From: Deltaproteobacteria bacterium
GTDB taxonomy: Bacteria > Myxococcota > Myxococcia > Myxococcales > SZAS-1
Direction of reading: 5' to 3'
Assembly (NCBI GenBank): GCA_018266075.1
Contig: JAFEBB010000073.1
Span: forward strand, 1-37,364
DNA length: 37,364 bases
Shown: positions 1,386 through 37,206 of the stretch, piece by piece
Position numbering within the stretch: the stretch's first letter is position 1
How the letters are laid out: every line of letters starts with the position of its first letter
The notes under the pieces: generated by a model
What the model was told of the DNA's origin: nothing
Seen by the model: the letters and a program-made list of their open reading frames with translations, nothing else
The model's database searches: none
Program-made: the position numbers and the translations under genes

Positions 1386-4300
1386 TCAGTAGCAGGCCGA
1401 CGCCTGGTTGAGCAGGACGTCGAGGTACTGCGCGACGTAGTTGTCATAGACGATCGCCGCGACATCCGGACGACCATCGCCGTTGAGGTCCGCCGCGGCC
1501 ACCCCGCTCACGCCCGCGCCGGCCGGGTACTTCACCTGGTTCGTGAAGGTGCCATCGCCCGCACCGTAGAGGATGGCCACCGAGCCGAAGTCGCCCGCGG
1601 CCACGAGGTCCAGGTTGCCGTCGCCGTCCATGTCGGCCACCGCGAGCGCACGGTTGGGCGCGAGCTGCGCGTCGTAGTCCACCGTGGTGCCCTTCACCGT
1701 GGGGAACGCGCCGTTGCCGTCGTTGAGCCCCACCTCGACCTGGACCCCGACCGCGAGGATGTCCGGGTAGCCGTCGTTGTTGAAGTCGGCCACCAGCGGC
1801 CAGCCGGAGTTGCCTGCCACGCCGGCGACGGAGGTCGCGGTCTGGAAGGTGAAGTCGCCGTTGCCGAGCGCGACCAGCGGGGGCACGAAGAGGTCCCAGT
1901 TGCCGTCGTGGTTGAGGTCAGCCACCGCGAGCTTGTTGGTGTTCACCTGGTTGACCAGCGCCGCGTGGGCGAGGCCGAAGGTGCCGTTGCCGTTGCCCGG
2001 GTAGATGGAGATCTGCGAACCGGTGTTCACCACCACGTCCACCTTGCTGTCGTTGTTCACGTCGACGGCGGCGAGCTGCGCCGAGACCACCGACGAGAAG
2101 CTGGTGCGGCTGGCGCTGGTGAAGTGGCCCGCGCCGTCGCCGGTGAAGACGTCGAACGCGCTGACGCCGTTAAAGGCGTTCTCAGAGATCACCAGGTCGA
2201 CGTTCCCGTCGCCGTTGATGTCGGCGGCCGCGAAGAACGGCCACCCCGCCTGCTGGTTGGTGGCCAGCGTGGTGCGCACCGGCGCCTGCAGCGTGCCGTC
2301 GGCGTTCACCTGCCGCGACGCGACCTGCATGGTGAAGGAGTTGTTCACGTCCCACTCCAGCGAGATCACCGCCAGCGGCGCGCTGGTGCCCAGGCGCGTG
2401 ACGAGCAGATCGGTGAGCCGCGCCGTGCTGGTGTACTGCGCGGGCAGCTCGAAGCCGCCGTCGCCGAGGCCGTGCACCGGGATGATGCCGGTGATGTCGC
2501 TCTCGGGTGCGAGGGCCAGGTCGAGGTTGCCGTCATGGTCGAAGTCCGCGGCCGCGATGCCGCCGATGGCCGGGACCGCGTAGGTCCTGAGCGCGCCCAG
2601 GGTGGAGGTGCCGGTGCCGAGCGCCACGTCGAGGAAGCCCGGGCTGTAGGTCGCGTTTCCATTCACCGGAGAGCAGTTGCCGTTGCCGGCGGCGAGGAGG
2701 TCCGGCAGGCCGTCGTGGTTCACATCGGCGACCAGCAGCGCGTCGTGCCAGCAGCTGGTGGCAAAGTTCTGCGGCGCGGCCAGCCCGCCGTCGCCGAGCC
2801 CGAGCAGCAGGCTGATGCCCGGCGCGTCACCCGCGGTGAGCACGTCGAGCTTGTTGTCCTTGTTGAAGTCGGTGATCACCACCGGCTTGGCCACGCGCGT
2901 GTAGGAGGTGTCGTTGAAGTATCCGAGCGTGTCGAACTCGGTGCCGGGCTGGAAGGTGCCGTCGCCATTGCCGCGCTGTACGAAGATCGCCGAACCCGAG
3001 GGCGAGCTGGTCGCGCTGTTCGTGGCCACCACCAGGTCGAGGTGGCCGTCGCCATCGAGGTCGCCGAGGCCCAGGCCGCGCACGCCCTGACTGCCCGGGA
3101 GCACCGTGTCGCCGCGAACCGGAAAGGTGCCGTCGCCCTGGCCCAGGAACACCGAGTAGGTGCGGCCCGGGCTGAACACCACGTCGAGGTGGCTGTCGCC
3201 GTCGATGTACCCGACCGCGGCCGCAACCGCTTGCGAGGTCAGCGTGCCCACCGCCACGCCGGGGCCGAAGCCGCCGTCGGTGTAGCCCGCGAAGAACTCG
3301 ATGTTGCCCAGCGCGCCGCCGAGGTTCACGTCAGCCACGTAGTCGGGCACGCCGTCGCCGTTGAAGTCGCCCGTGACGGCGAGCCCACCGCCCGCGCCGC
3401 TCACCAGCTGCGCGCGCTCGAATGTGCCGTTGCCTTGGCCCAGGAAGGTGGAGCGCTGGCCGGAGCTGTTGCCCGCGAGGGCGAGCACGTCGGGGTTGCC
3501 GTCGCCGTTCAGGTCGCGCGCGAAGATGTTGAGGTAGCCCGTGGCTGCGTCTGACTTGTCATTGATGGGCCAGCCCGAGAGCGACACGCCGCCGCAGGGC
3601 GTGGACGCGGCGACCGTTGCGTCGGAGCCATCGCCGACCGCGTTGATGGCGTGCACCGAGAAGGTGAACGACACACCGTCCTGCAGCCCCTCGAGCATCG
3701 CGCGGTAGCGCGGGTTGCCGAAGGTGTCGGTATAGGTGGTCGTGCTCCAGGTGGTGGTGCCGTCGGTCCAGGAGAGGGCGAAGCCGCTGACGGTCTGGCC
3801 GCCGTTGCCGGCCGGATCGTTCCAGGTGAGGGTGGCGATGCCGAAGCCCACGGTGGCGACGAGCGCGGTCGGGGCGCTGGGCACGTCGTAGGTGGTGATG
3901 GAGTTGCTGACGCCGGGCGCGCTGTCGCCCACCGCGTTGGTGGCCACCACGTTGAAGGTGTACGCGGTGCCGTTGGCGAGGCCGGTCACGGTGGCGGAGG
4001 TGTCGCCGGGCGCGGCGGTCGCGGTCCCGCCCGCGGGGTTGGAGGTGAGGGTGTAGCCGGTGATGGCGCTGCCGTTGTCATTGGGCGTGGACCAGGTCAC
4101 GGTGGCGCTGCGAATTCCGGTGCCGGCGTTGACGTTGCCCGGCGCGTCCGGGAGGCCCGCGCCCGTGGAGCCGCTGCTGCCCGAACTCGACGACGAGCTC
4201 GACGCGCTGCCGGAGCTCGAGCCGGTGGAGCTGCTGGATCCGGAGCTGCTCGACGAAGAGCTGGAGTTGCTCGCGCTCGAGCTGCTCGCGGAGGTGCTGG

Positions 4301-4553
4301 TGTTGCTCGAGGAGCCGCTGGAGGTCGTGGAGGTGGTGCTCCCGCTAGCGGTGGTCGACGAGCTCGTGGTGGACTCGGTGCTCGTCGTGGACCCGGTGCT
4401 CGTGGACGAGGTCTGCGTGCCGGTGGAGGTAGTCGACGCGGTCGCGGTGGTGCCGGCGGTGGCGGTCGAGCTCCCGCTCTTCGAGCCGCCGCAGGCCGAG
4501 GCAGCGAGGCAGAGGGCTGCGAGGACGGCGGTGGAAATCCGGGCATGAATCAT
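1386..4553 (-). CDS. Large FG-GAP/VCBS-repeat lipoprotein with two fibronectin III domains
   Basis: 1055 residues from the ATG at 4553 (GGAG 8 bases upstream). A signal peptide ends in the lipobox LAASAC with Cys21. Residues about 24-133 are an almost pure Ser/Thr/Gly linker, as expected for a stalk crossing the periplasm or leaving the surface. Two fibronectin III domains follow (about 135-222 and 225-310, each with a GLxxGxxYTF-like strand). The rest is about a dozen FG-GAP/VCBS repeats with DLNGDGxxDVL-type calcium-binding loops, which probably fold into a beta-propeller-like, integrin-alpha-type structure. The likely role is surface adhesion or binding; the ligand is unknown. A second protein of this type lies at 33975-36713. 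Its start is only 23 bases from the divergent start at 4577, so promoters must overlap coding sequence. Confidence 0.88.
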   Translation of the reverse strand: MIHARISTAVLAALCLAASACGGSKSGSSTATAGTTATASTTSTGTQTSSTSTGSTTSTESTTSSSTTASGSTTSTTSSGSSSNTSTSASSSSASNSSSSSSSSGSSSSTGSSSGSASSSSSSSGSSGSTGAGLPDAPGNVNAGTGIRSATVTWSTPNDNGSAITGYTLTSNPAGGTATAAPGDTSATVTGLANGTAYTFNVVATNAVGDSAPGVSNSITTYDVPSAPTALVATVGFGIATLTWNDPAGNGGQTVSGFALSWTDGTTTWSTTTYTDTFGNPRYRAMLEGLQDGVSFTFSVHAINAVGDGSDATVAASTPCGGVSLSGWPINDKSDAATGYLNIFARDLNGDGNPDVLALAGNSSGQRSTFLGQGNGTFERAQLVSGAGGGLAVTGDFNGDGVPDYVADVNLGGALGNIEFFAGYTDGGFGPGVAVGTLTSQAVAAAVGYIDGDSHLDVVFSPGRTYSVFLGQGDGTFPVRGDTVLPGSQGVRGLGLGDLDGDGHLDLVVATNSATSSPSGSAIFVQRGNGDGTFQPGTEFDTLGYFNDTSYTRVAKPVVITDFNKDNKLDVLTAGDAPGISLLLGLGDGGLAAPQNFATSCWHDALLVADVNHDGLPDLLAAGNGNCSPVNGNATYSPGFLDVALGTGTSTLGALRTYAVPAIGGIAAADFDHDGNLDLALAPESDITGIIPVHGLGDGGFELPAQYTSTARLTDLLVTRLGTSAPLAVISLEWDVNNSFTMQVASRQVNADGTLQAPVRTTLATNQQAGWPFFAAADINGDGNVDLVISENAFNGVSAFDVFTGDGAGHFTSASRTSFSSVVSAQLAAVDVNNDSKVDVVVNTGSQISIYPGNGNGTFGLAHAALVNQVNTNKLAVADLNHDGNWDLFVPPLVALGNGDFTFQTATSVAGVAGNSGWPLVADFNNDGYPDILAVGVQVEVGLNDGNGAFPTVKGTTVDYDAQLAPNRALAVADMDGDGNLDLVAAGDFGSVAILYGAGDGTFTNQVKYPAGAGVSGVAAADLNGDGRPDVAAIVYDNYVAQYLDVLLNQASACY

Positions 4554-4576
4554 GAGCTGGGTCTCCAAGGTCGCGA

Positions 4577-4966
4577 ATGCGTACCGCAAATCGCGAAAAC
4601 TACATCGTGTCGCGCCCCGAGGGCTATCCACCGATCGCGACCACGCCGCCGGAGGGCGCGACGGCCGGCGATCGCTGGTTCGACCCGTGCGAGCTGACGC
4701 TGATGCGCCATGTCGGCCGCGCCTGGCTCGCGACCCGGCCGACCGCGCGGTGGCAGATGCACGGGATGATCGAGGTCTCGACCCGCGTGCCGCGCGAGGT
4801 CCAGGTCGAACCACCCTACCAGGCGCTCGATCCGGCGCGGCTCACGCCCGCGGGCGACGAGACCGCGCGCTGCACCGAGCTCACCCATGGAGAGGCCACG
4901 CTGTACGCGTGGTTCTTCAACAAGGGCCTGCCGCATCGGTTCGACTGGCGCTCCTGGATCACCTGA
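4577..4966 (+). CDS. Unknown protein, 129 residues
   Basis: The frame is rich in G/C at third positions, and its product looks globular and soluble, with many Trp and Tyr residues and a C-terminal WFFNKGLPHRFDWRSW segment. No signal peptide or membrane helix is visible. I do not recognise a family. The ATG is close to the divergent lipoprotein start and has only a weak ribosome site (CCAAGG), so the true start could be a few codons later, for example the GTG at codon 11. The opposite strand is also open here but gives an arginine-rich, unconvincing product. Confidence 0.55.
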   Translation: MRTANRENYIVSRPEGYPPIATTPPEGATAGDRWFDPCELTLMRHVGRAWLATRPTARWQMHGMIEVSTRVPREVQVEPPYQALDPARLTPAGDETARCTELTHGEATLYAWFFNKGLPHRFDWRSWIT

Positions 4967-6009: not shown

Positions 6010-6525
6010 ATGCCCCAGTACCGGCTGCAGACCGTGCTCGAGATGCGCGAGCGCGCGGAGGAGGCCGCCAAAGAGGCCTTCGCCGCGGCCATGCGGGCGC
6101 TGACGGAGGAGCAGAAGCGCCAGAAAGACATGGAGGAAGACCTCGCCCGCCGCAAGGTGGAGCGCGCTCAGAAGGTCGCCGCGTACCTGCAGGACGCGCT
6201 CTCCAAGGGTTCAGCCGCCAACGCCATGCAGAACATGAACCGCTTCGACCAGCGGCTCCGCGACGAAGAGGCGCAACTCGCCCTCGACATCGAGAGACAA
6301 AAAGAGGTGGTGGCCCAGAAGCAGAAGGAGGCCGACGAGAAGCGCGGCGAGCTGGCCGAGGCGAGCAAAGAGAAGAAGGCCATCGAGAAGCACAAGGAGA
6401 AGTGGAGCGCCCAGGTGAAGCACGAGCGCGAGGCCAAGGAAGAGCTCAACCAGGACGAGGTCGGCAGCGCGCTCCACCTGGCCCGCCAGCGCGACGCCGC
6501 CCGGCGTCACGGCTCCGACGATTGA
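6010..6525 (+). CDS. FliJ/SctO-like stalk protein of a flagellar-type export apparatus
   Basis: 171 residues, almost entirely charged coiled coil. The opening MPQYRLQTVLEMRERAEEAA matches the FliJ pattern (F/Y-x-LQ-x-VL-x-x-R...E-x-x-A), and the length is close to FliJ/YscO. In known systems this protein inserts into the hexameric export ATPase and couples it to the export gate. It opens a co-directional cluster (sctO-sctP-sctQ-fliO-sctR-sctS-sctT-sctU). The cognate ATPase (FliI/SctN) is not downstream in the window and may lie elsewhere. Family assignment from the N-terminal pattern and neighbours is solid; sequence conservation in this family is always low. Confidence 0.82.
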   Translation: MPQYRLQTVLEMRERAEEAAKEAFAAAMRALTEEQKRQKDMEEDLARRKVERAQKVAAYLQDALSKGSAANAMQNMNRFDQRLRDEEAQLALDIERQKEVVAQKQKEADEKRGELAEASKEKKAIEKHKEKWSAQVKHEREAKEELNQDEVGSALHLARQRDAARRHGSDD

Positions 6526-6555
6526 CGCGAGCGGCCCTCCCGGGTCGAGACCTGC

Positions 6556-7569
6556 ATGCGGATCGACGACGACAGCGCAGAGCGGGCCCAGCAGGAGGCG
6601 CGCGCCCAGGATCGCAAGCTCCAGGAGCAGGCGCAGAAGCGCAAGGTCGATGAGGCCACCGCGTTCGACAAGGCCATGCAGGGCAAGCAGACCTCTGCCC
6701 AGGTCCAGAAGAGCTTCGCCCAGGCGCAGAAGCAGGAGGCCAAGAGCGCGATCCAGTCGCTGCTCCAGGCCCAGAAGGACACCACCGCCGAAGGCAAGAT
6801 GGAGGGCCGGCTGGAGCACGCCGAGGTCGAGTCCCTCGCCGACGACGCGCACCACACCGAGCAGGCCACCGACCAGCAGAAGCTCCAGCGCGGCGCCGCG
6901 GGTCGAAAGGACGTGGATCGCAAGACCGGGCGCATGGTCGAGAGCGGCCGGGGTGAAGACCAGCACGTCCAGGGCGGCATGACCGAGCGCGCCCAGGCCA
7001 GCCAGCAAGGCGCCGAGACGCGCCAGGCGCTGCGAAAGACCGACACCGAGGCCGACCACCACCGCGAGGAAGGCCGCGACGAGCGCCAGCCCGGGCAAGG
7101 CGCGCCGAAGTCGTCGAGCGGCGTGCAGGGCAAGGTCACCGAGCGCAAGGAGAAGCAGGGCGACGGCCAGCAGCAGCAAGGCGGCGGCGGTCAGCAGCAG
7201 CCGGGCGCCTTCCGCTTGCCGCCCGCAGCGCTCATGGCCCCGCCGCCGGTCGCGGTCCCCAAGGGTCAAGGCCAGGTCTCGCGGCTGCGCCAGGTGGCCC
7301 AGGAGATCGCCGAGAAGATCGTCCAGGCGGCGCGCGTCGGCACGAACCGCATGGGGTTGCCCGAGTTCCAGATTGAGCTCAAGAGCGACGTGCTCAAGGG
7401 ACTCAAAGTGAAAGTCTCGGGCCGGCATGGCAGAATCCGGGCGCTGTTTTCCAGCCGGGATCCGCAGGTCCTCAAGCAGCTCCGCGCCGAAGCCGATGGG
7501 CTCCGGCAGGCGCTGACAGCCCGAGGGCTCAAGGTCGACGCGCTGGAGATTGAAGAGGAACGCGCCTGA
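6556..7569 (+). CDS. FliK/SctP-like substrate-switch protein
   Basis: 337 residues. The first two thirds are hydrophilic, disordered-looking and rich in Gln, Lys, Glu and Ala. A folded C-terminal region (about residues 245-337) contains the RVGTNRMGLPEFQIELKSD and LKVKVSGRHGRIRALF strands and a final helix, matching the hook-length-control C-terminal fold of FliK and the HpaP/YscP group. Members measure the length of the external rod or needle and then contact the SctU C-terminal domain to change export specificity. Genes for SctU and an extra SctU-like domain lie downstream in the same cluster. The long Gln-rich arm would be the ruler segment; its length is not unusual. Confidence 0.75.
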   Translation: MRIDDDSAERAQQEARAQDRKLQEQAQKRKVDEATAFDKAMQGKQTSAQVQKSFAQAQKQEAKSAIQSLLQAQKDTTAEGKMEGRLEHAEVESLADDAHHTEQATDQQKLQRGAAGRKDVDRKTGRMVESGRGEDQHVQGGMTERAQASQQGAETRQALRKTDTEADHHREEGRDERQPGQGAPKSSSGVQGKVTERKEKQGDGQQQQGGGGQQQPGAFRLPPAALMAPPPVAVPKGQGQVSRLRQVAQEIAEKIVQAARVGTNRMGLPEFQIELKSDVLKGLKVKVSGRHGRIRALFSSRDPQVLKQLRAEADGLRQALTARGLKVDALEIEEERA

Positions 7570-7637
7570 GCTCGCGCCGCGACGACCGCACCACCCTGGG
7601 CCCCCCGCCGGCGCCGCGCCGGCCGGGGCAGCCCAAC

Positions 7638-9221
7638 GTGCGCCCCGCCGCGTCCCAGCGAATCGCGCCGGATCGCACGCGCACGCTCGTCGGCAGCGAC
7701 GCGGACGAGGACGAGCCCACCACCTCGACGGATGGCAACGGGCTCTCCTCGCGTCCAGCTTCGCGGCAGGCGCCGCCGCCCATCCCCTCGCCGCGCCGTA
7801 GCCAGGCCCGCGAGCCGGAGTACACGCCCACGCCCTCGGCCGGAAACCGCCGTGGTCAGCCCGAGCCCGAGCCGCAGCGGGTGAGGCTGCCCTCCCAGGC
7901 GATGCGCCAGCGGCCGTACACGCGCTTCGCCTGGACGAACCTGCCCAAGGTGCCGTCGTCGGAGGTCACGCTGATGTCGCGGGTGCAGGGCGTGCTCCCC
8001 GCGGACCCGCACGCCGCCGCGGCGGCCGTGGCCGAGCGGGTGCAGCAGTTGCTCGAGCACCCCTGCGTCATCAAGCTCACGCATGTGTTCCTCACCAAGC
8101 CCGCGGAGCTGCGAAAGCTGGTGCCCGAGCCGAGCTTCCTCGCGCAGCTCGCGCTCGCGCCGCACGTGCCGCGCGGCATCCTCGACGTCGAGCTGGCGTT
8201 GGCCCACGCGCTCATCGACCAGCTCCTCGGCGGCGCAGCGGGCGAGGCGGTGGTGCTGCGGCCGCTCACCGACATCGAAGAGGGCGTGCTCAGCTACATG
8301 ATGCTCGAGGGCTTCAAGGCCCTGGCGCCGTCGATGGATCCCGAGCGCCCCAAGCTGCGCGTGGAGAGCGCGCTGCGCGGCGTGGACGAGGCGCTGGCCC
8401 TGCTCGATCCCGAGGACCCGCTGGTGGTGCTGCAGTACGTGTTCAGCGTGGGCGAGGTGGCGTCGGGCTACTTCCGGCTCTTCTTGCCCTCGGCCGCCGT
8501 GGACGCCGCCCAGCCCTCGCCCCAGAGCGCCGACGTGAAGCTGCGCCGCCAGAAGCTCTTCGAGGCCCACGCCGAGCGGTTGAGCCTGGTGAAGGACACG
8601 CTGCGCGCGGAGATCGCCCACTGCGAGCTCTCCGCGCTCGACCTCCGCGGCCTCGGCCCCGGCGACGTGGTGCTGGTGGAAGAGCCCATGGCCCGGCCCG
8701 ACCTGGGCGAGGGCGGCCACTGCAAGCTGCGGGTGGGTCTGGGGCAGCGCGGCCACTGGAAGGCCAAGCTCGACGTGGGCGAGTCGGGGCTCCAGGCCAC
8801 GCTCGAAGAGGTGGTGCTGGGCACGGAGCTGCCCGCGCCGCAGGCGCCTGCGCCCGCGGAAGCGCCTTCTGAAGACCCGGCGTCGGAGTTCGAGGAGCTG
8901 CCCGGCGGCCGCACCACGGAGACCACGCTCCCGAGTAACCCCTGGGAAGCGAACGAGAGGACCAACGTGAGCTCATCTTCCGGTGGCGCGGAGAGCGCCG
9001 AGCTGCTCAACGACATTCCGCTGCACGTCTCGGTGGAGCTGGCCCGCGTGCCGGTGACCGCCGAAGAGGTCGTCGCCTTGCGAGCAGGGCAGGTGGTGGC
9101 GCTGGGACGGCCGGCGTCGAGCGCGGTGGAGCTCTCGGTGAACGGCAAGATCGTGGCCCAGGGCGAGCTCGTCGAGGTCGACGGGCAGCTCGGCGTGAAG
9201 ATCACCCAGCTGGTGGCGTGA
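7638..9221 (+). CDS. sctQ: FliM/FliN-like C-ring (sorting platform) protein, SctQ
   Basis: 527 residues from a GTG at 7638; the frame is open back to 7554 but has no better start codon, and the first in-frame ATG (7974) would remove conserved sequence. Residues 1-90 are Pro/Arg-rich and probably unstructured. The middle is a FliM-like domain. Two SpoA-type modules follow: one around 330-395 (GPGDVVLVEEP, then WKAKLDVGESGL) and a canonical one at about 445-527 (IPLHVSVELARVPVTAEEV through LRAGQVVALGRP to the C-terminus). SctQ/FliN rings receive substrates and bind the ATPase-stator complex. The start is the weakest part of this call. Confidence 0.8.
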   Translation: MRPAASQRIAPDRTRTLVGSDADEDEPTTSTDGNGLSSRPASRQAPPPIPSPRRSQAREPEYTPTPSAGNRRGQPEPEPQRVRLPSQAMRQRPYTRFAWTNLPKVPSSEVTLMSRVQGVLPADPHAAAAAVAERVQQLLEHPCVIKLTHVFLTKPAELRKLVPEPSFLAQLALAPHVPRGILDVELALAHALIDQLLGGAAGEAVVLRPLTDIEEGVLSYMMLEGFKALAPSMDPERPKLRVESALRGVDEALALLDPEDPLVVLQYVFSVGEVASGYFRLFLPSAAVDAAQPSPQSADVKLRRQKLFEAHAERLSLVKDTLRAEIAHCELSALDLRGLGPGDVVLVEEPMARPDLGEGGHCKLRVGLGQRGHWKAKLDVGESGLQATLEEVVLGTELPAPQAPAPAEAPSEDPASEFEELPGGRTTETTLPSNPWEANERTNVSSSSGGAESAELLNDIPLHVSVELARVPVTAEEVVALRAGQVVALGRPASSAVELSVNGKIVAQGELVEVDGQLGVKITQLVA

Positions 9222-9239
9222 TTCGCGCCGCGGCGACGT

Positions 9240-9269
9240 TTGACCCCCTCTGCGAGCGCGCGCTACAAC
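9240..9269 (+). promoter_or_regulatory. Sigma-70-type promoter before fliO
   Basis: TTGACC (9240-9245), an 18-base spacer and TACAAC (9264-9269), 44 bases before the ATG at 9314. It lies in the only sizeable gap (92 bases) inside the core of the export cluster, so fliO-sctRSTU may be expressed separately from sctOPQ. Confidence 0.5.
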
Positions 9270-9313
9270 CTTCGCTCGCTTGCGGCCCCTCGTCGCACGC
9301 GAACCTGCCCACG

Positions 9314-9916
9314 ATGCTCCGCGTCTTCCTGCTCAGCGCGCTGCTCGCGGCGCCGCTCGTGGCGGCCGCCGACATCCCGCCATTGCCGCGCAAGCCCGCC
9401 GTGCCCGCGCAGCCGACGACACCCGATCCAGCGCCGCCCGCGCCGGTCGCGACGCCGACGCCGCCCGTGACGCCGCCTGCTCCCTCGCCGCCCTCGCCTG
9501 CACCGCAGAAGGATCCCTCGCTCTACGCCACGCCCGACGACCTCGGCTCGCCCACCGACGGCACCGGCTACCTGCTCTTCAAGACCCTGGTCGTGCTGGG
9601 CGTGGTGGTCTCGGTCATCTACCTCACGCTCAACGTGGGCGCGCGGAAGCTGCTCAAGCTCGGGCCGCAAGCGAATGCGCTCGTCAAGGTCATCGACCGC
9701 GTGCCGCTGGATCCCAAGAAGAGCCTCTACGTGCTCCAGGTGGGCGGCGAGTTCCTGCTCGTGGGCGCCAGTGAGCAGGGCCTGAACCTCATCTCCAAGC
9801 TCGACGGCGAGAGCGTGCAGAAGCTCCTCGCCGAGCGCCTCGCCGCGCAGCCCTCGTCCAACTTCCTCGAGCGGCTCAACGCGCTCGCCAAGCCCGCGCC
9901 CCGGAAGCCCCAATGA
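9314..9916 (+). CDS. fliO: FliO-like assembly factor of the export gate
   Basis: 200 residues from the ATG at 9314. A signal-like N-terminus (MLRVFLLSALLAAPLVAAAD) is followed by a Pro-rich segment (about 21-65), one membrane helix (about 86-106) and a cytoplasmic FliO domain with ALVKVIDRVPLDPKKSLYVL and VGGEFLLVGASEQGLNLIS. FliO helps assemble the FliP pentamer in flagella. It overlaps the following sctR gene by four bases (ATGA), so the two are translationally coupled, as is common for fliO-fliP. FliO is normally a flagellar component and absent from classical injectisomes, which makes its presence here informative. Confidence 0.82.
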   Translation: MLRVFLLSALLAAPLVAAADIPPLPRKPAVPAQPTTPDPAPPAPVATPTPPVTPPAPSPPSPAPQKDPSLYATPDDLGSPTDGTGYLLFKTLVVLGVVVSVIYLTLNVGARKLLKLGPQANALVKVIDRVPLDPKKSLYVLQVGGEFLLVGASEQGLNLISKLDGESVQKLLAERLAAQPSSNFLERLNALAKPAPRKPQ

Positions 9917-10746
9917 AAAGCCCGCTCCAGGTCTTGCTCCGCAGGCTCATTCCGCTGGCGATCGTGCTCGGGGCCGTCGGGTCGGGCGGGCTGGCCTGGG
10001 CCGCGCGCGCGTCGCACGCCGCCGCGAGCACCGCCGCCACCACCGTCAGCCCCGAGGTGACGAGCGCGCTCACCAACAACAGCTTCGGGGGCAAGCCGCT
10101 GGTGCTGCTCGTCGCGCTGGCGGCGATGGCGCTCCTGCCCTTCGTGCTCTTGATGGTGACGAGCTTCGTGAAGATCGCGGTGGTGCTCTCGATCGTCCGC
10201 AGCGCGCTGGGAACGCAGCAGATCCCGCCGACCCAGGTGATCACCGGTCTGGCGATCATCCTCACCGTCTACATCATGGCGCCCGTGGCCCTGCAGATGT
10301 ACCGCGCGACCGGCAACCTCGCGGACAACAACGGCGAGCTCTTCAGCGAGAAGAGCGTGCCGCTGCTCCTCGACGCGGCCAACAAGGCGAAGGAGCCGCT
10401 GCGCAACTGGCTGGAGAAGCACGCCACCGAGAAGGACCGCACGCTCTTCTACTCGCTGGCGAAGCGCATGCGAGAGGGCCCGGACAAGGACAGCGTCACC
10501 GAGCGCGACTTCCTCATCATCGTGCCCAGCTTCGTGATCAGCGAGCTGAAGCAGGCGTTCCAGATTGGGTTCATCCTCTTCGTGCCGTTCATCGTCATCG
10601 ACATGGTGGTCGCGAACATCCTGCTCGCCCTGGGCATGCACATGCTCTCGCCCACCACGATCTCCATGCCGTTCAAGCTGCTGCTCTTCGTCCTCGTCGA
10701 TGGGTGGTACCTCATCGCCAAGGGCCTGGTCATTGGCTACCTGTGA
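9913..10746 (+). CDS. sctR: Export gate protein SctR (FliP family)
   Basis: 277 residues. It has an N-terminal signal-like segment (about 11-30), four predicted membrane helices and both family signatures: PFVLLMVTSFVKIAVVLSIV continuing to RSALGTQQIPP (about 76-106), and SFVISELKQAFQIGF followed by FVPFIVIDMVV (about 206-233). FliP/SctR forms the pentameric core of the export channel with SctS and SctT. Gene order R-S-T-U matches both flagellar (fliPQR-flhB) and injectisome (sctRSTU) operons. The N-terminal extension of about 50 Ala/Ser/Thr-rich residues is like that of flagellar FliP with its cleaved signal peptide. Confidence 0.95.
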   Translation: MKSPLQVLLRRLIPLAIVLGAVGSGGLAWAARASHAAASTAATTVSPEVTSALTNNSFGGKPLVLLVALAAMALLPFVLLMVTSFVKIAVVLSIVRSALGTQQIPPTQVITGLAIILTVYIMAPVALQMYRATGNLADNNGELFSEKSVPLLLDAANKAKEPLRNWLEKHATEKDRTLFYSLAKRMREGPDKDSVTERDFLIIVPSFVISELKQAFQIGFILFVPFIVIDMVVANILLALGMHMLSPTTISMPFKLLLFVLVDGWYLIAKGLVIGYL

Positions 10747-10755
10747 GGTGAAGTG

Positions 10756-11025
10756 ATGGTCACCGAGTTCATCAGCCAGATCACGCGCGAGTCGCTGTAC
10801 CTGGTCATCACCGCGTCGATGCCGCCCATCATCATCAGCTTGATCGTGGGCCTCGCCGTCTCGATCTTCCAGGCCACCACGCAGATCCAGGAGCAGACGC
10901 TCACCTTCGCGCCCAAGCTGGTCGTCGTGTTCGGCGTGTTGGCGCTCGCGGGGCCGTGGATTGGCTCGCAGCTGGTGCGCTTCACCTTCGAAGTCTTCGA
11001 CCGCTTCCCGCAATTCGTGCACTGA
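10756..11025 (+). CDS. sctS: Export gate protein SctS (FliQ family)
   Basis: 89 residues with two membrane helices and the family pattern MPPIIISLIVGLAVSIFQA, then TTQIQEQTLTFAPKLVVV. The ATG at 10756 is chosen over the GTG immediately before it because GAGGTGAAG gives a ribosome site at normal spacing. It starts 9 bases after sctR and ends 3 bases before sctT. Four SctS copies wrap around the SctR/SctT core in known gates. Length is exactly typical. Confidence 0.95.
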   Translation: MVTEFISQITRESLYLVITASMPPIIISLIVGLAVSIFQATTQIQEQTLTFAPKLVVVFGVLALAGPWIGSQLVRFTFEVFDRFPQFVH

Positions 11026-11028
11026 CGC

Positions 11029-11844
11029 ATGGAAGCGTTCGGTCAGCTCAGCCACCTGCTGGGTCAAGCAGGCTTCACCCAGATCCTGCTCCAGCTCGCG
11101 CTGGTGATGGGCCGGGTGCTGCCCATGGCGCTCATCGCGCCGTTCCTCGGCGGCGAGCTGGTGCAGAGCGAAGTGAAGCTGGGCGTGGGAATCACGCTCG
11201 CGCTGTTGCTCTATCCGCTGGTGGGCGCAGGCCAGCCGGTGCCCATGTTCGCGTTCCCGTTCATGGCGCTGCTCATCAAGGAAGTGGCCATCGGCGGGGT
11301 GATGGCCTTCACGGTGAGCATGATCTTCGAGGCCGCGCGCGCAGCAGGCACGTTCGTGGACACCATGAGCGGCGCGAACCAGGCCACGGTGATGGTGCCG
11401 CAGATCCAGCAGCAGGCGTCGCTGTTCGCGGATCTGCAGTTTCAGTTCGCGGTGGTCCTCTTCCTGGTGCTCAACGGGCACCACGTGGTGATCACCGCCA
11501 TGGCCGACTCCTTCGTGCTGATTCCGATCAACGACTATCCGCACTTTACGCACGGCACCTGGCCGTTCTTCGAGCTCATGCTCCGCACCTGCGCGCACCT
11601 CATGTTCGTGTGCGTGGCGCTCTCGGCGCCCGCGGCCGCGGCGAGCTTCCTGACCGACGTGTCGCTCGGCCTCATCAACCGCGTGGCCCCGCAGATCCAG
11701 GTCTTCTTCATGAGCATGACCGTGAAGCCCATCGTCACGGTCTTCGTGATGCTGCTCGCGATTCACGTGTTCTCCGACGAGCTCGCCAAGCAGTTCGGCC
11801 TCGTGCTCGACGACATGAAGCGCTCGTACATGCTGATGCACTAG
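11029..11844 (+). CDS. sctT: Export gate protein SctT (FliR family)
   Basis: 271 residues, very hydrophobic, with about six to eight membrane segments. Recognisable FliR features include RVLPMALIAPFLGGELVQSE near the N-terminus, FMALLIKEVAIGGVMAFTVS in the middle and a GLINRVAPQIQVFFMSMTVK segment before the last helices. A single SctT closes the SctR-SctS helical assembly. It lies between sctS and sctU with short spacers, so co-translation is likely. Confidence 0.93.
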   Translation: MEAFGQLSHLLGQAGFTQILLQLALVMGRVLPMALIAPFLGGELVQSEVKLGVGITLALLLYPLVGAGQPVPMFAFPFMALLIKEVAIGGVMAFTVSMIFEAARAAGTFVDTMSGANQATVMVPQIQQQASLFADLQFQFAVVLFLVLNGHHVVITAMADSFVLIPINDYPHFTHGTWPFFELMLRTCAHLMFVCVALSAPAAAASFLTDVSLGLINRVAPQIQVFFMSMTVKPIVTVFVMLLAIHVFSDELAKQFGLVLDDMKRSYMLMH

Positions 11845-11853
11845 GGCTCAGCC

Positions 11854-12936
11854 ATGGCGGACGAGAGCGGCGAGAAAACCGAAGAACCCACACAAAAGAA
11901 GCTGGACGACGCTCGCAAGCGCGGCCAGGTGTGGAAGAGCCGCGACCTCACCGGCGCGCTCGTGTTCTTCGTGGGCTACGCGATGCTGACCGCGGGCGCC
12001 TCGCAGGTGTACCTGCGCTTCCACATGCTCTTCGACGGCGCGATGGACACCATCGCCCACCTGGGCACGCCCGAGCACGACACCAACGAGGCGCTCATGA
12101 ACGGGCTGGTGTCGCTGCTCGTCCTCTGCCTGCCGGTCGTGGCGGGCGCGGCGATCGTGGGCGGGCTCGCGGACTTTCTCCAGGTGGGCCCGCTCTTCAC
12201 CGGCGATCCGGTGATGCCCAAGCTCGAGAAGCTGAACCCGATGGACGGGCTCAAGAACATCTTCAGCAAGAAGACCGTGGTCGAGGCCTTGAAGAACATG
12301 CTCAAGGTCTCGCTCGCCGGGTACCTGGCGTGGACGGTGCTCCGCGATCATGTGCCGGTGGTGATCCAGACGGTGCACACCACGCCGCTCGGGCTGGTGA
12401 TTGTGCTGGGCGAGCTCGTCTATCGACTCACGATCAAGGTGGGCTTGCTGCTCGTGCTCATCGCGCTCTTCGACGTGTGGTGGCAGCACCGCACGTACAT
12501 GAAGGACATGATGATGACGCGCGAGGAGGTGAAGCGCGAATACAAGGAGAGCGAAGGCGACCCGCACCACAAGGCCAAGCGCAAGGAGCTGCACCAGGAG
12601 ATCCTCGAGCACTCCGCCATCGAGAGCGTGCAGAACGCCGACGTGGTGATCACCAATCCCACGCACGTGGCGGTGGCGATCTCGTACGACAAGGAGAAGG
12701 ACGCCTCGCCGCGCGTGCTTGCCAAGGGCGTGGACGAGCTCGCCGCGCGCATCCGCGAGCTGGCCAAGAAGCACGACGTGCCCATGGTGCGGAACGTGCC
12801 GCTCGCGCACGCGCTCAACCGGCTCGATCTCGGAACCGAGATCCCCGAGGAGCTCTACGACGCCGTGGCCGAGGTGCTGAACTTCGTCTACGGGCTGCAG
12901 AACGAGCAGGCGCCGAGCATGGAGCCGCGACGCTAG
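11854..12936 (+). CDS. sctU: Export switch protein SctU (FlhB family), with autocleavage motif
   Basis: 360 residues. A basic N-terminus (SGEKTEEPTQKKLDDARKRG) is typical of FlhB/YscU; four membrane segments follow up to about 205, then a linker and the cytoplasmic domain. The autocleavage motif NPTH is intact at 268-271, so the chain should split between Asn268 and Pro269 to give the C-terminal fragment that sets substrate specificity. The C-terminal part contains VRNVPLAHALNRLDLGTEIP and then EELYDAVAEVLNFVY. A free-standing copy of this fragment is encoded at 14315-14599. SctU is normally the acceptor for the ruler protein encoded at 6556. Confidence 0.95.
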   Translation: MADESGEKTEEPTQKKLDDARKRGQVWKSRDLTGALVFFVGYAMLTAGASQVYLRFHMLFDGAMDTIAHLGTPEHDTNEALMNGLVSLLVLCLPVVAGAAIVGGLADFLQVGPLFTGDPVMPKLEKLNPMDGLKNIFSKKTVVEALKNMLKVSLAGYLAWTVLRDHVPVVIQTVHTTPLGLVIVLGELVYRLTIKVGLLLVLIALFDVWWQHRTYMKDMMMTREEVKREYKESEGDPHHKAKRKELHQEILEHSAIESVQNADVVITNPTHVAVAISYDKEKDASPRVLAKGVDELAARIRELAKKHDVPMVRNVPLAHALNRLDLGTEIPEELYDAVAEVLNFVYGLQNEQAPSMEPRR

Positions 12937-12958
12937 ACTTGCTGCTCGAGGGGTCGCC

Positions 12959-13501
12959 ATGAGCCAGGACAAGCTCTTCTTCGGCCACGCCGTCTCGGGC
13001 CTGTACCAGCACGCGCTCGGCAACCGAATGATGCCGGAGCTCCGCGAGCAGCTCCGCGAGGCCGGGCTGGATCTCGACAAGCCGCTCTTGCCCGCGTACC
13101 CGGCCGAGCTCTTCGTGCGCTGGTTGGACGTGGCGGGCGCTGCGCTCTTTCCGAACCGTTCGCGTGCCGAGCAGCTCTACGAGATGGGCCGGGTGACGGT
13201 GCAGGGCTTCGCGCAGATCGAGCTCGGCAGCGCCATGTTCGATCACCTCAAGGTCATGACCGCCGAGAAGTCGATGCAGCGCCTCGAGCGGAGCCTGCGC
13301 GCGGCCATGAACTTCATCGCCGTGCGCTTTCACCCGCTGAGCCCCACCGAGTTCGAGCTCCACCTCAACGACGTCGTGGGGATCCCGGACTTCTTCCGTG
13401 GCCTCGTGGAAGGCGGCTCGAGCGCCGCGGGTCGGAGCTCGAGCGTCACCGTGAGCCGGCTCGAGGGCGAGGGCTGCGTGCTGCTGTATCGAGCGGGTTA
13501 A
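12959..13501 (+). CDS. TIGR02265/DUF2378 family protein, 180 residues
   Basis: The features FGHAVSGLYQHALGN, YPAELFVRWLDVAGAALFPN, GRVTVQGFAQIELGSAMFD, LRAAMNFIAVRF and NDVVGIPDFFRGLVEGG match what I know of TIGR02265, a paralogous family of Myxococcus and relatives. The biochemical role is unknown; proteins in the family are roughly this length. It begins 22 bases after sctU with a GAGGGG ribosome site, so it is probably co-transcribed with the export genes. It is the strongest taxonomic marker in the window. No membrane segments or metal-binding motifs are visible. Confidence 0.85.
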   Translation: MSQDKLFFGHAVSGLYQHALGNRMMPELREQLREAGLDLDKPLLPAYPAELFVRWLDVAGAALFPNRSRAEQLYEMGRVTVQGFAQIELGSAMFDHLKVMTAEKSMQRLERSLRAAMNFIAVRFHPLSPTEFELHLNDVVGIPDFFRGLVEGGSSAAGRSSSVTVSRLEGEGCVLLYRAG

Positions 13502-13528
13502 CCAGTTCGTTAACAAGGCGGACGGCCG

Positions 13529-13861
13529 ATGATTCGCGCGCTCGTACTTCTCGCCACGCTCGCCGGAGCAGACCTGAAGACGGTGGGCTCGTCGAAGGAG
13601 GCCGCCGCCGCCATCGGCCAGGACGTGCGCGTCAGCGGCATCGCGCAGGATTCCAAGCTCTCGGGCGTGGTGGTGACGGGCGAGCTCGTCGTCTACTGCC
13701 TCGATCACCCGAGCTGGAGCGCGCGCGCCGGCAAGCGCATCACCGTCGAGGGCAAGCTGGAGCAGACGCGCGAGCTCGAAGCGCACGTCGACGACGCAGG
13801 CGCCATCAGCCAGGGCACGGGCGGCCCCATCTTCGTCATCCGCGCGTGCACGGTGAAGTAG
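13529..13861 (+). CDS. Small exported protein of unknown function, 110 residues
   Basis: A short signal-like segment (MIRALVLLATLAGA) is followed by an all-beta-looking domain: DVRVSGIAQDSKLSGVVVTG, then KRITVEGKLEQTREL and ending FVIRACTVK. Alternation of strands around VSGIAQ and VEGKLE suggests an OB-like fold, by analogy with small periplasmic OB proteins; this is inference. Cysteines are at the YCLD and RACT positions and could pair. It follows the DUF2378 gene by 27 bases, a gap that contains two GTTAAC sites. I do not recognise a named family. Confidence 0.65.
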   Translation: MIRALVLLATLAGADLKTVGSSKEAAAAIGQDVRVSGIAQDSKLSGVVVTGELVVYCLDHPSWSARAGKRITVEGKLEQTRELEAHVDDAGAISQGTGGPIFVIRACTVK

Positions 13862-13879
13862 GCGCTACACTCGCCGCGC

Positions 13880-14299
13880 ATGGCCGACACCTTCCGCCTT
13901 CACGAACTGGGCAGCCTGGTGCTCCTCGACTGGCTCGCCACGCCCACCGTGCCCGCGCTCGACGAGATTGGCCAGAAGCTCGATGCCGCGATCGCGCGCG
14001 GCAAGCCGCTCGCGCTCATCACCGTCATTCGCGACGGCACCGTGGCGCCCGACTCCAAGGTCCGCGACCACATGAACACCATCTTCAAGCCGCGCCTGAT
14101 GCAGCTGCGCGCGCACTGCCTGGTGATCGAGGGCAAGGGCCTCGCGGCGGATGCCAAGCGGCTCTTCACCCGTGCGGCGCTCGCGCTCATCGGCCAGGGC
14201 GCGCCCATCTTCGACTCGCTCCAGAGCGCGCTGCGCAGCCCCGCGTTTGCTCCCGAGGCCGCGCTCGAAGCCCAGGCGCTGGCCCTCAGGGCAGGGTGA
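13880..14299 (+). CDS. Unknown cytosolic protein, 139 residues (STAS/SpoIIAA-like layout)
   Basis: The order of elements is strand (HELGSLVLLDWLATP), helix (DEIGQKLDAAIARGKP), strand (LALITVIRDGTVAP), helix and strand (AHCLVIEGKGLAADAKRL), then a final helix. This resembles the small alpha/beta folds of STAS or SpoIIAA-like domains. No catalytic signature is visible, and the similarity is by layout only. A TACACT box eight bases before the ATG, with no Shine-Dalgarno, suggests a leaderless start. It lies between a DUF2378-linked pair and the detached SctU domain, so it may serve the export system. Confidence 0.6.
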   Translation: MADTFRLHELGSLVLLDWLATPTVPALDEIGQKLDAAIARGKPLALITVIRDGTVAPDSKVRDHMNTIFKPRLMQLRAHCLVIEGKGLAADAKRLFTRAALALIGQGAPIFDSLQSALRSPAFAPEAALEAQALALRAG

Positions 14300-14302
14300 T
14301 CC

Positions 14303-14308
14303 TAGAGT
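14303..14308 (+). promoter_or_regulatory. Candidate -10 box TAGAGT six bases before the SctU-like gene
   Basis: TAGAGT, six bases, then ATG at 14315, with no ribosome site between. The same spacing is seen before sctO and the gene at 19938. No convincing -35 is present. Confidence 0.3.
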
Positions 14309-14314
14309 CGGAAC

Positions 14315-14599
14315 ATGGCCGCCGATGATCGCGACACGCAAATCGCCGTCGCCATCAAGTACAACAAGGACGAGGACAAGGCCCCCAAGGTCGTGGCCAA
14401 GGGGATGAACCTCAAGGCCGAGCGCATCAAGGAGATCGCCAAGCAGGCAGGCGTCCCGATCATGCGCAACGTGCCGATGGCGCACGCGCTGAACAAGGTC
14501 GACATCGGCGACGAGATTCCGGAAGAGCTGTACGACGCCGTGGCCGAGGTGCTCAACTTCGTCTACGCGCTGGCCCAGGACAAGGAACCCAAGCCCTGA
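14315..14599 (+). CDS. Free-standing SctU/FlhB C-terminal domain, 94 residues
   Basis: The protein aligns from its start with the part of SctU just after NPTH: VAIKYNKDEDKAPKVVAKG against VAISYDKEKDASPRVLAKG, then VRNVPLAHALN-like MRNVPMAHALN, and both share EIPEELYDAVAEVLNFVY exactly. The membrane domain and the NPTH motif are absent. It therefore looks like a soluble stand-in for the cleaved SctU fragment, comparable to FlhX of Helicobacter pylori, an FlhB C-terminal homologue. It may modulate substrate switching or chaperone the platform. The closeness to the local sctU at both protein and DNA level suggests duplication within the cluster. Confidence 0.88.
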   Translation: MAADDRDTQIAVAIKYNKDEDKAPKVVAKGMNLKAERIKEIAKQAGVPIMRNVPMAHALNKVDIGDEIPEELYDAVAEVLNFVYALAQDKEPKP

Positions 14600-14613
14600 C
14601 GGGCGGAGACCCC

Positions 14614-15021
14614 ATGAGCGACTACGACTACGAGAACTCCTCCGCGGGCCAGCAGAAGTCTGGTTCGGTGGTGCCGTGGATCCTGCTCACCTTCATCACC
14701 GTGGGCGCCGGCTTCGGCATGTTCTTCTTCAACATGCAGAAGGAGCAGGCCGTCTCGGCGCTCGAGAAGTTCAAGGCCGAGTACGACACCCTCAAGAAGC
14801 GCCAGGCCGCGACGGATCAAGCCAAGCAGGATCTGGAGAAGCAGCTCGCGGACATGAAGACCGAGCGCGACACCCAGGAGACGGCCAAGAACGACGCCCT
14901 CCACAAGCTCGACGAGGCCACCCAGCAGCTCTCGCTCGCCAAGGCCGAGTCGAGCGACAAGGGCAAGGGCAAGGGCGGCAAGAAGGGCATCGTGATGGTG
15001 AAGGGCAAGCGCCACCGCTAG
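14614..15021 (+). CDS. Membrane-anchored coiled-coil protein, 135 residues
   Basis: A short polar N-terminus is followed by one membrane helix (about 19-39, VVPWILLTFITVGAGFGMFF) and a continuous coiled coil (about 42-110). The tail is very basic and rich in Lys and Gly (KGKGKGGKKG). The arrangement is that of a bitopic protein whose basic tail could bind nucleic acid, peptidoglycan or membrane phosphates, depending on its side. It is the last gene of the rightward cluster, 14 bases after the SctU-like gene, with GGCGGAGACC as ribosome site. I do not recognise a family. Confidence 0.7.
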   Translation: MSDYDYENSSAGQQKSGSVVPWILLTFITVGAGFGMFFFNMQKEQAVSALEKFKAEYDTLKKRQAATDQAKQDLEKQLADMKTERDTQETAKNDALHKLDEATQQLSLAKAESSDKGKGKGGKKGIVMVKGKRHR

Positions 15022-20759: not shown

Positions 20760-21155
20760 GTGCGCATCGGCGAGCTGGCCAAGAAGGCGAACGTGGCGAC
20801 CTCGACGGTGCGCTTCTACGAGCGCGCGGGGCTCTTGCCGCGGGCGGATCGCAGCTCGGGCCGGCGCGTCTACGACGGGAGCGAGCTCGATCGGCTGGCG
20901 CTGATTGGTTTCGCGCAGGCGTGCGGGTTCACGCTGGCCGAGGTCCGCACGCTGCTCTCGGGAGAGAAGCCCGGCCGCGCGCGCGAACGCTGGATGCCGC
21001 TCGCCAAAGCCAAGCTTCTCGAGCTTCGGCAGACCGAAGCGCGGCTGCGCGGGATGCGTGGGCTCCTCACGCGCCTGCTCGATTGCCAGTGCGTGGACGT
21101 CGGCGAGTGCGGGCGACGGATTCGGTCGGCGGCTAGCGCACGGCCCAAGCGATGA
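20760..21155 (+). CDS. MerR-family metal-type regulator
   Basis: 131 residues from the GTG at 20760. The N-terminal winged helix is textbook (MRIGELAKKANVATSTVRFY, then ERAGLLPRADRSSGRRVY), followed by the long dimerisation helix and a C-terminal loop CQCVDVGEC (Cys109, Cys111, Cys117). CueR and ZntR-type sensors hold their metal with cysteines at this place, so a metal or thiol-reactive effector is likely, but which one cannot be read from the sequence. It probably activates the divergent gene at 20348-20689 and limits its own expression. Its 3' end overlaps that of the FHA gene by 23 bases. Confidence 0.88.
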   Translation: MRIGELAKKANVATSTVRFYERAGLLPRADRSSGRRVYDGSELDRLALIGFAQACGFTLAEVRTLLSGEKPGRARERWMPLAKAKLLELRQTEARLRGMRGLLTRLLDCQCVDVGECGRRIRSAASARPKR

Positions 21156-21966
21156 CCACCGCGCCGGCGCCCGCGGCGAAGAGCGCCAGGCCCATGAGCA
21201 TCACCTCGAAGCCGGCCAGCGCGGGCTGGCGCTTCTTCTTCGGCTGCGGTTCCGGCGTCTCGACGGGCTCGGGCTTCGGCTCGGGCGCGACGACCTTGGG
21301 CTCCACGGGCTTGGTCGGCTCGGGCGGCGGCGTCGGACGCTGCGGCTCGAGCGGCTTCTCGAACGCCAGGATCGTGTTGCCAATCTGAATCGTCTCGCCG
21401 CCGCGCAGGCTCTGGGAGCCCGTGAGCCGCACGCCGTCGACGAGCACGCCGTTGGCGCTCATCAGATCCACGACCTGAAACGAATCGCCTGTTCGGACGA
21501 GCTTGGCGTGCATGCGCGACGCGAGCGCGTCGCTCACGCGGGCCACGCAACCTTCGCCGCGGCCGACGAACGTGGCCTGCTCCATGAGCACCACGCGCCG
21601 GCCGATGTCCGGACCGTTGAGCCAGAGCAGCGACGGCAGGCCCGGCTTCACCGGCATCGGCGTCCCGCGCAGCATCGCGCGCGCGAGCAGCTTGGTCTGG
21701 GGCGCGGCGTCGGGCAGGGCGACGAGCGCCACCTCGACCGCACCGATCTTCACCACGTCGCCCGGCCGCAGCAGCCGACGCGAACCCGCCGCGAGCTTCT
21801 GCGCGCCGATCTGCGCCTCGGCCTTCGCGGAGGCGATCGCGTGGTCACCGCGTGGCTCCAGGGCCAGAGCGCCTTCGGGCAGGCCGTGCGCGGCGCCGAG
21901 CACCAGGCGGCCTTCGAGGGCGAGCTTCTGGGGGTTGGCGCCCGCGCGGATTTCGAGGGAGAGCAT
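21133..21966 (-). CDS. FHA-domain protein with a C-terminal membrane anchor
   Basis: 277 residues from the ATG at 21966; a TTG 36 bases upstream is an alternative start. A diverged FHA-like segment (about 60-85, RPGDVVKIGAVEVALV) precedes a canonical FHA domain (about 115-205). Its phosphothreonine-binding residues are visible: Gly-Arg 135-136 in FVGRGEG, Ser150 and His153 in ALASRMHAK, and Asn-Gly at 172-173. A Pro/Lys/Glu-rich linker (about 206-245) leads to one membrane helix (about 255-275). The FHA part would face the cytosol and recruit proteins phosphorylated by Ser/Thr kinases, which are abundant in myxobacteria. Confidence 0.85.
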   Translation of the reverse strand: MLSLEIRAGANPQKLALEGRLVLGAAHGLPEGALALEPRGDHAIASAKAEAQIGAQKLAAGSRRLLRPGDVVKIGAVEVALVALPDAAPQTKLLARAMLRGTPMPVKPGLPSLLWLNGPDIGRRVVLMEQATFVGRGEGCVARVSDALASRMHAKLVRTGDSFQVVDLMSANGVLVDGVRLTGSQSLRGGETIQIGNTILAFEKPLEPQRPTPPPEPTKPVEPKVVAPEPKPEPVETPEPQPKKKRQPALAGFEVMLMGLALFAAGAGAVVIAWAVR

Positions 21967-22004
21967 GCCGGCCGGTAGTTCACGGACCGTGCCGACAGCC
22001 AAGC

Positions 22005-36713: not shown

Positions 36714-37206
36714 CGTTCTCCCGAACCCAAAGGAGCGACATTCTATGCGGACGGGGACGCTCCGAGGGTGCCTCCCTTGGGCCTCGCGTCTCCCAGGCAG
36801 GCTCGGCGGTGCGCGCGGCGCCCCGGACATCTCGAGACGAGGCGCCCCTCGACCGAGGTGAGCCCGTCGCCGTCTGGAGCGCGCGAGCCCTGCTCGATCG
36901 CGGCGCGGCTTCCCTGCGCTGCTGCGCGCGCTGCGGGGGCGAGCGGCTCTTCTCATTGAGAGTGAAAGGCTGCCGATCTCTTCCTCGCCGCGCGCGACGA
37001 ATGACGCCACGGCACCTGGCTCCCACACAGTCTCAATCGACTTGGGATTGAAAACGAAGCGGCCTCCATCTGAGACATCCGTGCGACTCGCGCGACGCAC
37101 CCTGGGGGACCCAACGAGGGTGGCATGGGCAGGGAAGGGCAGGGCGGCGGAAGGCTGGATTTGCCATGTCGTCCCAACACGGACGTTCTGTGGCCGCTTG
37201 TCCGGC
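36714..37206. other. About 490 bases without a convincing gene
   Basis: Apart from the TAGAAT -10 of the lipoprotein gene, I see only open frames with arginine-rich, low-complexity products and a weak TCAATC/GATTGA inverted repeat at 37033-37051. One rightward frame (36809-37051) contains a CCARCGG zinc-ribbon-like half but no second half. Confidence 0.5.

Follow-up and report, generated by a model that had tools for sequence, protein, structure and literature searches.

The 37,364-base window analysed here is the complete contig C73 of a draft genome (7.84 Mb in 166 contigs, 96.6% complete) assigned to the same order as Myxococcales bacterium UBA5297. It most probably carries one of three dispersed pieces of the 'long' Myxo NF-T3SS, known in Myxococcus as T3SS*, an anti-prey export machine of predatory, gliding myxobacteria, for which we propose a working model that includes a needle or rod. 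The genome encodes the export gate SctR, S, T, U and V together with SctN and SctJ, these gate proteins fall on the Myxo NF-T3SS branch of our trees, and no dedicated T3SS secretin was found.

Genes from position 6010 to 12936 are identified by curated models as SctO, P, Q, FliO, R, S, T and U, all of which had been named in a first-pass annotation of the sequence, and SctU is followed up to 15021 by a DUF2378 protein, two small ORFs, FlhX and a small coiled-coil protein (Table 1). The limits of 6010 and 15021 proposed in that annotation fit the gene run; it did not include the stand-alone FlhB C-terminal protein named here as FlhX. The open frame of FliO extends from 9218 but the start at 9314 is more likely, being followed by a signal peptide and then a TM segment. 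Our comparison set of 80 named related loci contains no match for the DUF2378 protein and no relative of the two small proteins or of the coiled-coil protein. The DUF2378 gene and the two small ORFs (12959-14299) split SctU from FlhX, and an insertion of about 1-3 kb with other content is present at the same place in four loci (L047, L073, L076 and L078).

Table 1. Features of the gene run and the FHA protein in the window
Feature	Position	Strand	Evidence
SctO / FliJ-type stalk (YscO-like)	6010..6525	+	PF16789 1.9e-35; TIGR02473 FliJ 3e-11
SctP / FliK-type length-control protein	6556..7569	+	PF02120 Flg_hook at C-terminus 2.4e-7, barely over cut-off
SctQ, C-ring protein, FliM-like middle and FliN-like end	7638..9221	+	PF02154, PF01052; TIGR02551 SctQ 2e-33, over cut-off
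FliO	9314..9916	+	PF04347 5.7e-13; TIGR03500 7e-14, slightly below its cut-off
SctR, export gate	9913..10746	+	PF00813 7e-70; TIGR01102 yscR above cut-off, TIGR01103 fliP below
SctS, export gate	10753..11025	+	PF01313 5e-30
SctT, export gate	11029..11844	+	PF01311 3e-50
SctU, switch protein, NPTH autocleavage motif intact	11854..12936	+	PF01312 1e-116; TIGR01404 SctU above cut-off
DUF2378 protein, between SctU and FlhX	12959..13501	+	PF09536 1e-36
Small protein, same run	13529..13861	+	ORF with coding-type GC3
Small protein, same run	13880..14299	+	ORF with coding-type GC3
FlhX, stand-alone SctU/FlhB C-terminal domain	14315..14599	+	PF01312 2e-28; kept after SctU in Myxococcaceae T3SS* loci
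Small coiled-coil protein, one TM, run end, membership uncertain	14614..15021	+	ORF only
FHA protein, YscD-type cytoplasmic domain, C-terminal TM, without periplasmic ring domain	21133..22002	-	PF16697 8e-16

Outside the run, the FHA protein matches the SctD model TIGR02500 at 1e-4, below its cut-off, and its homologues are located on the minus strand shortly past SctV in about a dozen relatives. It might be a SctD-like partner of the system, SctD being the large inner ring protein expected in the long variant, although this assignment is uncertain. Near each end of the contig, on the minus strand, lies a gene for a very large FG-GAP repeat protein, one of 1142 aa with fn3 (1386-4814) and the other of 1041 aa (33975-37100). 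Both are likely to be secreted or surface proteins.

The first-pass annotation described the system as having no visible ring or ATPase genes, which is correct for the window but not for the genome. On the minus strand of contig C96 are genes for a SctF-like protein, an LcrH-type TPR protein, a SctI-like protein, SctJ with a lipoprotein signal, a FliG-like protein, SctL and SctN, while contig C37 carries a second SctF-like protein, two LcrH-type TPR proteins and SctV; the TPR chaperones match TIGR02552 (LcrH) at 2e-20. Because SctJ, SctL, SctN and SctV are present in the same draft genome, the apparent absence is an effect of the window. SctN of C96 is the only T3SS ATPase found in the whole genome. 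The YscJ/FliF proteins found are two short lipoproteins, both of the SctJ type, and a FliF-type MS ring was not found in the genome. Of the genes that the annotation had proposed to look for elsewhere, sctV, sctN, sctL and sctJ are thus present, whereas secretin and flagellin were not found: the best match to the SctC model (TIGR02516) anywhere in the genome reaches 138.9 of 238 bits, on contig C3, which is none of the contigs found to carry T3SS genes, and flagellin has no match in the genome, in agreement with the annotation, which saw no filament genes. The SctI-like protein of C96, a rod candidate, is assigned by position alone, and a PDB profile search with it gave nothing.

In Myxococcaceae and Archangiaceae records the genes form one cluster in the order I-J-G-L-N-O-P-Q-FliO-R-S-T-U-FlhX-TPR-A-TPR-V (letters are Sct names, except G for FliG-like and A for SctF-like), which agrees with the E. 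coli order fliF-G-H-I-J-K-L-M-N-O-P-Q-R plus flhB-flhA. Each module missing from the window is contiguous with the window module in the single cluster of most Myxococcaceae relatives. In the window genome this series has two breaks, one following N and one following FlhX. An artefact of assembly or binning would be conceivable in a draft of 166 contigs whose relatives have one cluster, but it is quite improbable: no T3SS piece sits at a contig end, and UBA5297 (G141) has the same modules likewise on three separate contigs, so that the dispersal looks real in this sub-lineage.

The identity of the system was examined with a SctRSTUV alignment of 42 systems, comprising flagella (E. coli, Myxococcota and one from Bacillota), injectisomes (rhizobial, Paraburkholderia and Desulfovibrio), T3SS*, the 'short' Myxo NF-T3SS and related deltaproteobacterial systems. 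In the FastTree result flagella are split off from all other systems (0.99), and T3SS*, the short and the related systems form one group (1.0) that is sister to injectisomes; IQ-TREE with 21 systems recovers the same splits at 98-100. The root on the flagellar branch is an assumption in these trees. This placement agrees with an earlier study (PMC3459982). SctR, SctU, SctV and SctN score over cut-off with the injectisome models, but with the flagellar models they do not. The first-pass reading as a secretin-less, non-flagellar myxobacterial T3SS is upheld by this position outside flagella and by the lack of a secretin over the SctC cut-off. A canonical flagellum, for which the annotation had named a complete flagellar gene set or a placement inside flagellar FliPQR/FlhB as evidence, is ruled out, as SctRSTUV fall outside flagella, the genome has no flagellin and its SctJ lipoproteins are not FliF.

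Two other readings of the flagellar features need to be weighed here. FliO and the FliM-, FliJ- and FliG-type features, in a genome without flagellin, could be what is left of a degenerate flagellum, but we regard such a relic as extremely improbable: all parts are intact, they are 40-80% conserved over many genera in the same order, neither frameshifts nor relaxed selection is seen, and both the model cut-offs and the tree position given above point away from flagella. The system might instead be a primitive intermediate that retained flagellar FliO and FliG and whose ancestors never had a secretin, representing a stage before secretin capture. The branching order (our trees; PMC3459982), the match of the gene order to that of E. 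coli flagella and the presence of a FliG homologue in the slot held by SctK in injectisomes argue for it. However, the flagellar root is assumed, some other NF-T3SSs also have FliO (PMC12403147) and a secretin could have been lost in one lineage. We rate this reading at slightly less than an even chance. The description of the system as an intermediate between flagellum and injectisome in the first-pass annotation does not conflict with the branching order. With its SctF-like and FliG-like proteins, however, the system lacks fewer parts than was assumed there.

The same annotation regarded FliO as unusual outside flagella, and this has to be withdrawn. FliO is a general feature of NF-T3SSs in Myxococcota, and 143 of 174 genomes of this phylum have a FliO match. 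It was already reported in 2025 for both NF-T3SSs of M. xanthus (PMC12403147), so its presence in the Myxo NF-T3SS is known and not new. Flagellin is found in 45 of the 174 genomes, which means that at least 98 genomes have FliO without flagellin. Among the flagellin carriers are genera belonging to the order of the window genome and to family f7; the order is thus not uniformly flagella-free. Several Myxococcota genomes hold a flagellum, T3SS* and the short system together.

The gene located between SctJ and SctL encodes, on the evidence of sequence and predicted fold, a homologue of FliG covering its middle and C domains. The protein of the window genome matches PF01706 at 3e-9, and matches are also present in L067, L087 and L090. 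A profile of the family gives FliG as its first PDB match (E 2e-6) and aligns with real FliG over 202 columns (hhalign 96.4%, E 1e-9). The 14 best structural matches of its AF2 model (pLDDT 86, pTM 0.73) are all FliG, with Z of 5.9-8.2 against 4.2 for the next. In the 174 genomes, 37 weak PF01706 matches lie on a contig that also has FliO, and 33 of them are 6.1-7.5 kb away from it. In injectisomes the position between SctJ and SctL is that of SctK. Identity with SctK was considered and rejected, and because the protein shows no match to the Desulfovibrio J-L protein (hhalign 0.1%, single sequence) only FliG homology is claimed. A 150-aa protein in the same slot of the short system (C16:2512-2964) has no Pfam or NCBIfam match. 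Myxo systems have been stated to lack FliG (PMC3459982), a statement which the homologue corrects; we did not find an earlier report of it in T3SS* clusters. Its presence in the SctK slot is also relevant to the question of where SctK came from; that SctK acts like FliG had previously only been guessed (the SctK entry in a published table reads 'FliG (?)'; PMC4045390).

T3SS* has been described as having no needle, secretin or translocon (PMC10433427, PMC12075869). From the sequences analysed here the 'needleless' part of this description appears doubtful. Two SctF-like proteins of the window genome match PF09392 faintly. An HMM built from the 62 C-terminal residues and run iteratively against every ORF in the loci collected 52 SctF-like ORFs in 84 sequences and none from shuffled or reversed ORFs, and a SctF-like gene is present in the U-to-V interval of 29 of the 31 loci that span it. 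The proteins are 71-290 aa in length and resemble SctF in their C-termini. Searched against PDB, the profile of a 34-member family places PrgI, EscF and MxiH at the top (E 2.6e-7 to 3e-5), a subset including the two upstream-type proteins has MxiH first (2.8e-6), and the Myxococcus-type subset has EscF alone (3e-4); the last aligns poorly with one environmental SctF (hhalign 1.6%). Twenty of the 34 members match PF09392 (Pfam, best 2.9e-8) and seven match TIGR02105 (NCBIfam, best 5e-6). Most single members fall short of the curated cut-offs, and the match to SctF holds at the level of the family. On FliO-bearing contigs all 43 weak PF09392 matches lie within 15 kb of FliO, and most of them cluster at distances of about 5 or 11 kb. 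This positional enrichment is the stronger fact, since the PF09392 search is loose on its own and at E <= 1 also finds matches in 3 of 14 control genomes. An AF2 model of a SctF-like protein is a hairpin of middling confidence (pLDDT 70), and the structural matches of such helical hairpins include many unrelated proteins, are not specific and are given no weight here. The possibility that the family is a paralogue of the SctI-like family was rejected (hhalign 0.5%). L065, L085, L092, L089 and L093 have two to four SctF-like genes each, arranged in tandem or close to one another.

It is possible that T3SS* truly lacks a needle, with effectors crossing the inner membrane only and being carried onward by the tips of the Kil pilus; the SctF-like proteins would then be, for example, secreted cargo or tip-associated proteins that share the export signal region of SctF. 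Both the reviews and the Kil paper are on the side of this reading. Outside Myxococcus-type genomes the SctF-like proteins have long Ser/Ala/Gly-rich N-termini unlike needles of 70-90 aa, and N-termini of such length and variability are more suggestive of cargo than of a needle. SseC is a weak additional match for three members. Nevertheless we consider it unlikely. Needle subunits are the best matches of the family by three independent routes, members from Myxococcus, Corallococcus and Citreicoccus can be of needle size (71-78 aa) without a cargo domain, and the genes adjoin those for LcrH/SctY-type chaperones. The occurrence of SctF-like proteins in the window system hence calls the published description into question and not its membership in T3SS*. 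Apart from the stated absence, our literature search found no report of SctF in Myxococcus, and we did not find SctF-like proteins in T3SS* clusters reported before.

In the window the cleavage motif of SctU reads NPTH, as in flagella and the short system; nearly all of the other T3SS* read (loci L047-L126) have NPDH or NPEH. FlhX starts at the position that follows the SctU cleavage site. FlhX could plausibly provide a switch domain that does not depend on cleavage of SctU. Neither the conserved FlhX nor the replacement of NPTH by NPDH or NPEH was found reported before.

In the working model that we propose, FliO would help SctR to start the SctR-S-T gate, which SctU and SctV would complete, with FlhX acting as a second copy of the SctU switch domain. 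SctN, SctL and SctO would energise export, and SctQ and the FliG homologue would form a cytoplasmic ring beneath SctJ. The first-pass annotation left the export cargo as unknown; concrete candidates can now be named, as the first substrates would likely be the SctI-like rod protein and SctF-like subunits held by the LcrH-type TPR chaperones. These subunits may polymerise into a short needle or rod across the periplasm. Because the system has no secretin of its own, cargo would have to pass the outer membrane through a different channel, for which the Kil (Tad) pilus is the simplest candidate. In M. xanthus the Kil pilus recruits T3SS* to sites of contact with prey (PMC12075869, PMC10433427), and prey lysis depends on T3SS*, as shown in this species only (PMC12075869); the window system may have a similar role in predation. 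That a periplasmic SctF-like needle meets the Kil channel is tentative, and we consider it clearly less probable than not. Similarly speculative, with chances well short of even, is the wider proposal that T3SS* is a nearly complete proto-injectisome, which has kept FliO and FliG, the latter in the place of SctK, and whose genuine SctF needle or rod stops in the periplasm and is plugged into the Kil (Tad) channel of the outer membrane to give a chimeric anti-bacterial machine. The passage of cargo from T3SS* to prey has been an open question premised on the absence of a needle, and this premise falls if each cluster does encode SctF-like subunits. Confirmation of the needle-like and FliG-like components would mean that current depictions of T3SS* need to be revised.

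Among named systems, T3SS* of M. xanthus (MXAN_2434-2464) has the same gene set and order as the window system and belongs to the same SctR-V clade, and the block from FliO through R, S, T and U to FlhX is 50-74% identical between the window and M. xanthus AM003 (L088). The window system differs in being distributed over three loci in place of one, in the DUF2378 gene and two small ORFs between SctU and FlhX, and in the NPTH motif of SctU where most relatives have NPDH or NPEH. T3SS loci of the Myxococcota type also occur in records labelled as other taxa, namely Comamonas sp. KCTC 72670 (L061), Microvirga (L120), Nitrospira (L122) and Acidobacteriota (L125). The Comamonas record has a SctR that is 71% identical and full Myxococcus-type synteny, and mislabelling or contamination is therefore likely.

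The same genome also contains the short Myxo NF-T3SS (C16:785-9686, L003), with SctJ, Q, FliO, R, S, T, U, V and a SctF-like protein. It is a sister system that shares all of these components with the window system, and its SctR is about 50% identical to that of the window. Unlike the long system, it has no FlhX, TPR chaperones or ATPase within the stretch examined. As one T3SS ATPase was found in the genome, it may serve both export gates; alternatively, a second ATPase gene falls into a gap of the assembly. The flagellar export apparatus is similar to the window system in gene order, FliO, the FliG homologue and the FliM-type domain, but the window system has no flagellin, its SctJ is a short lipoprotein and not FliF, and its position in the tree is different. 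Canonical injectisomes (for example Nitratidesulfovibrio pDEVAL01 and rhizobial T3SS) have in common with the window system the SctJ lipoprotein, SctF with a TPR partner, SctN and the grouping of SctV. They possess a secretin and SctK, whereas in the window system no SctC-level secretin was found and the SctK slot is occupied by the FliG homologue.
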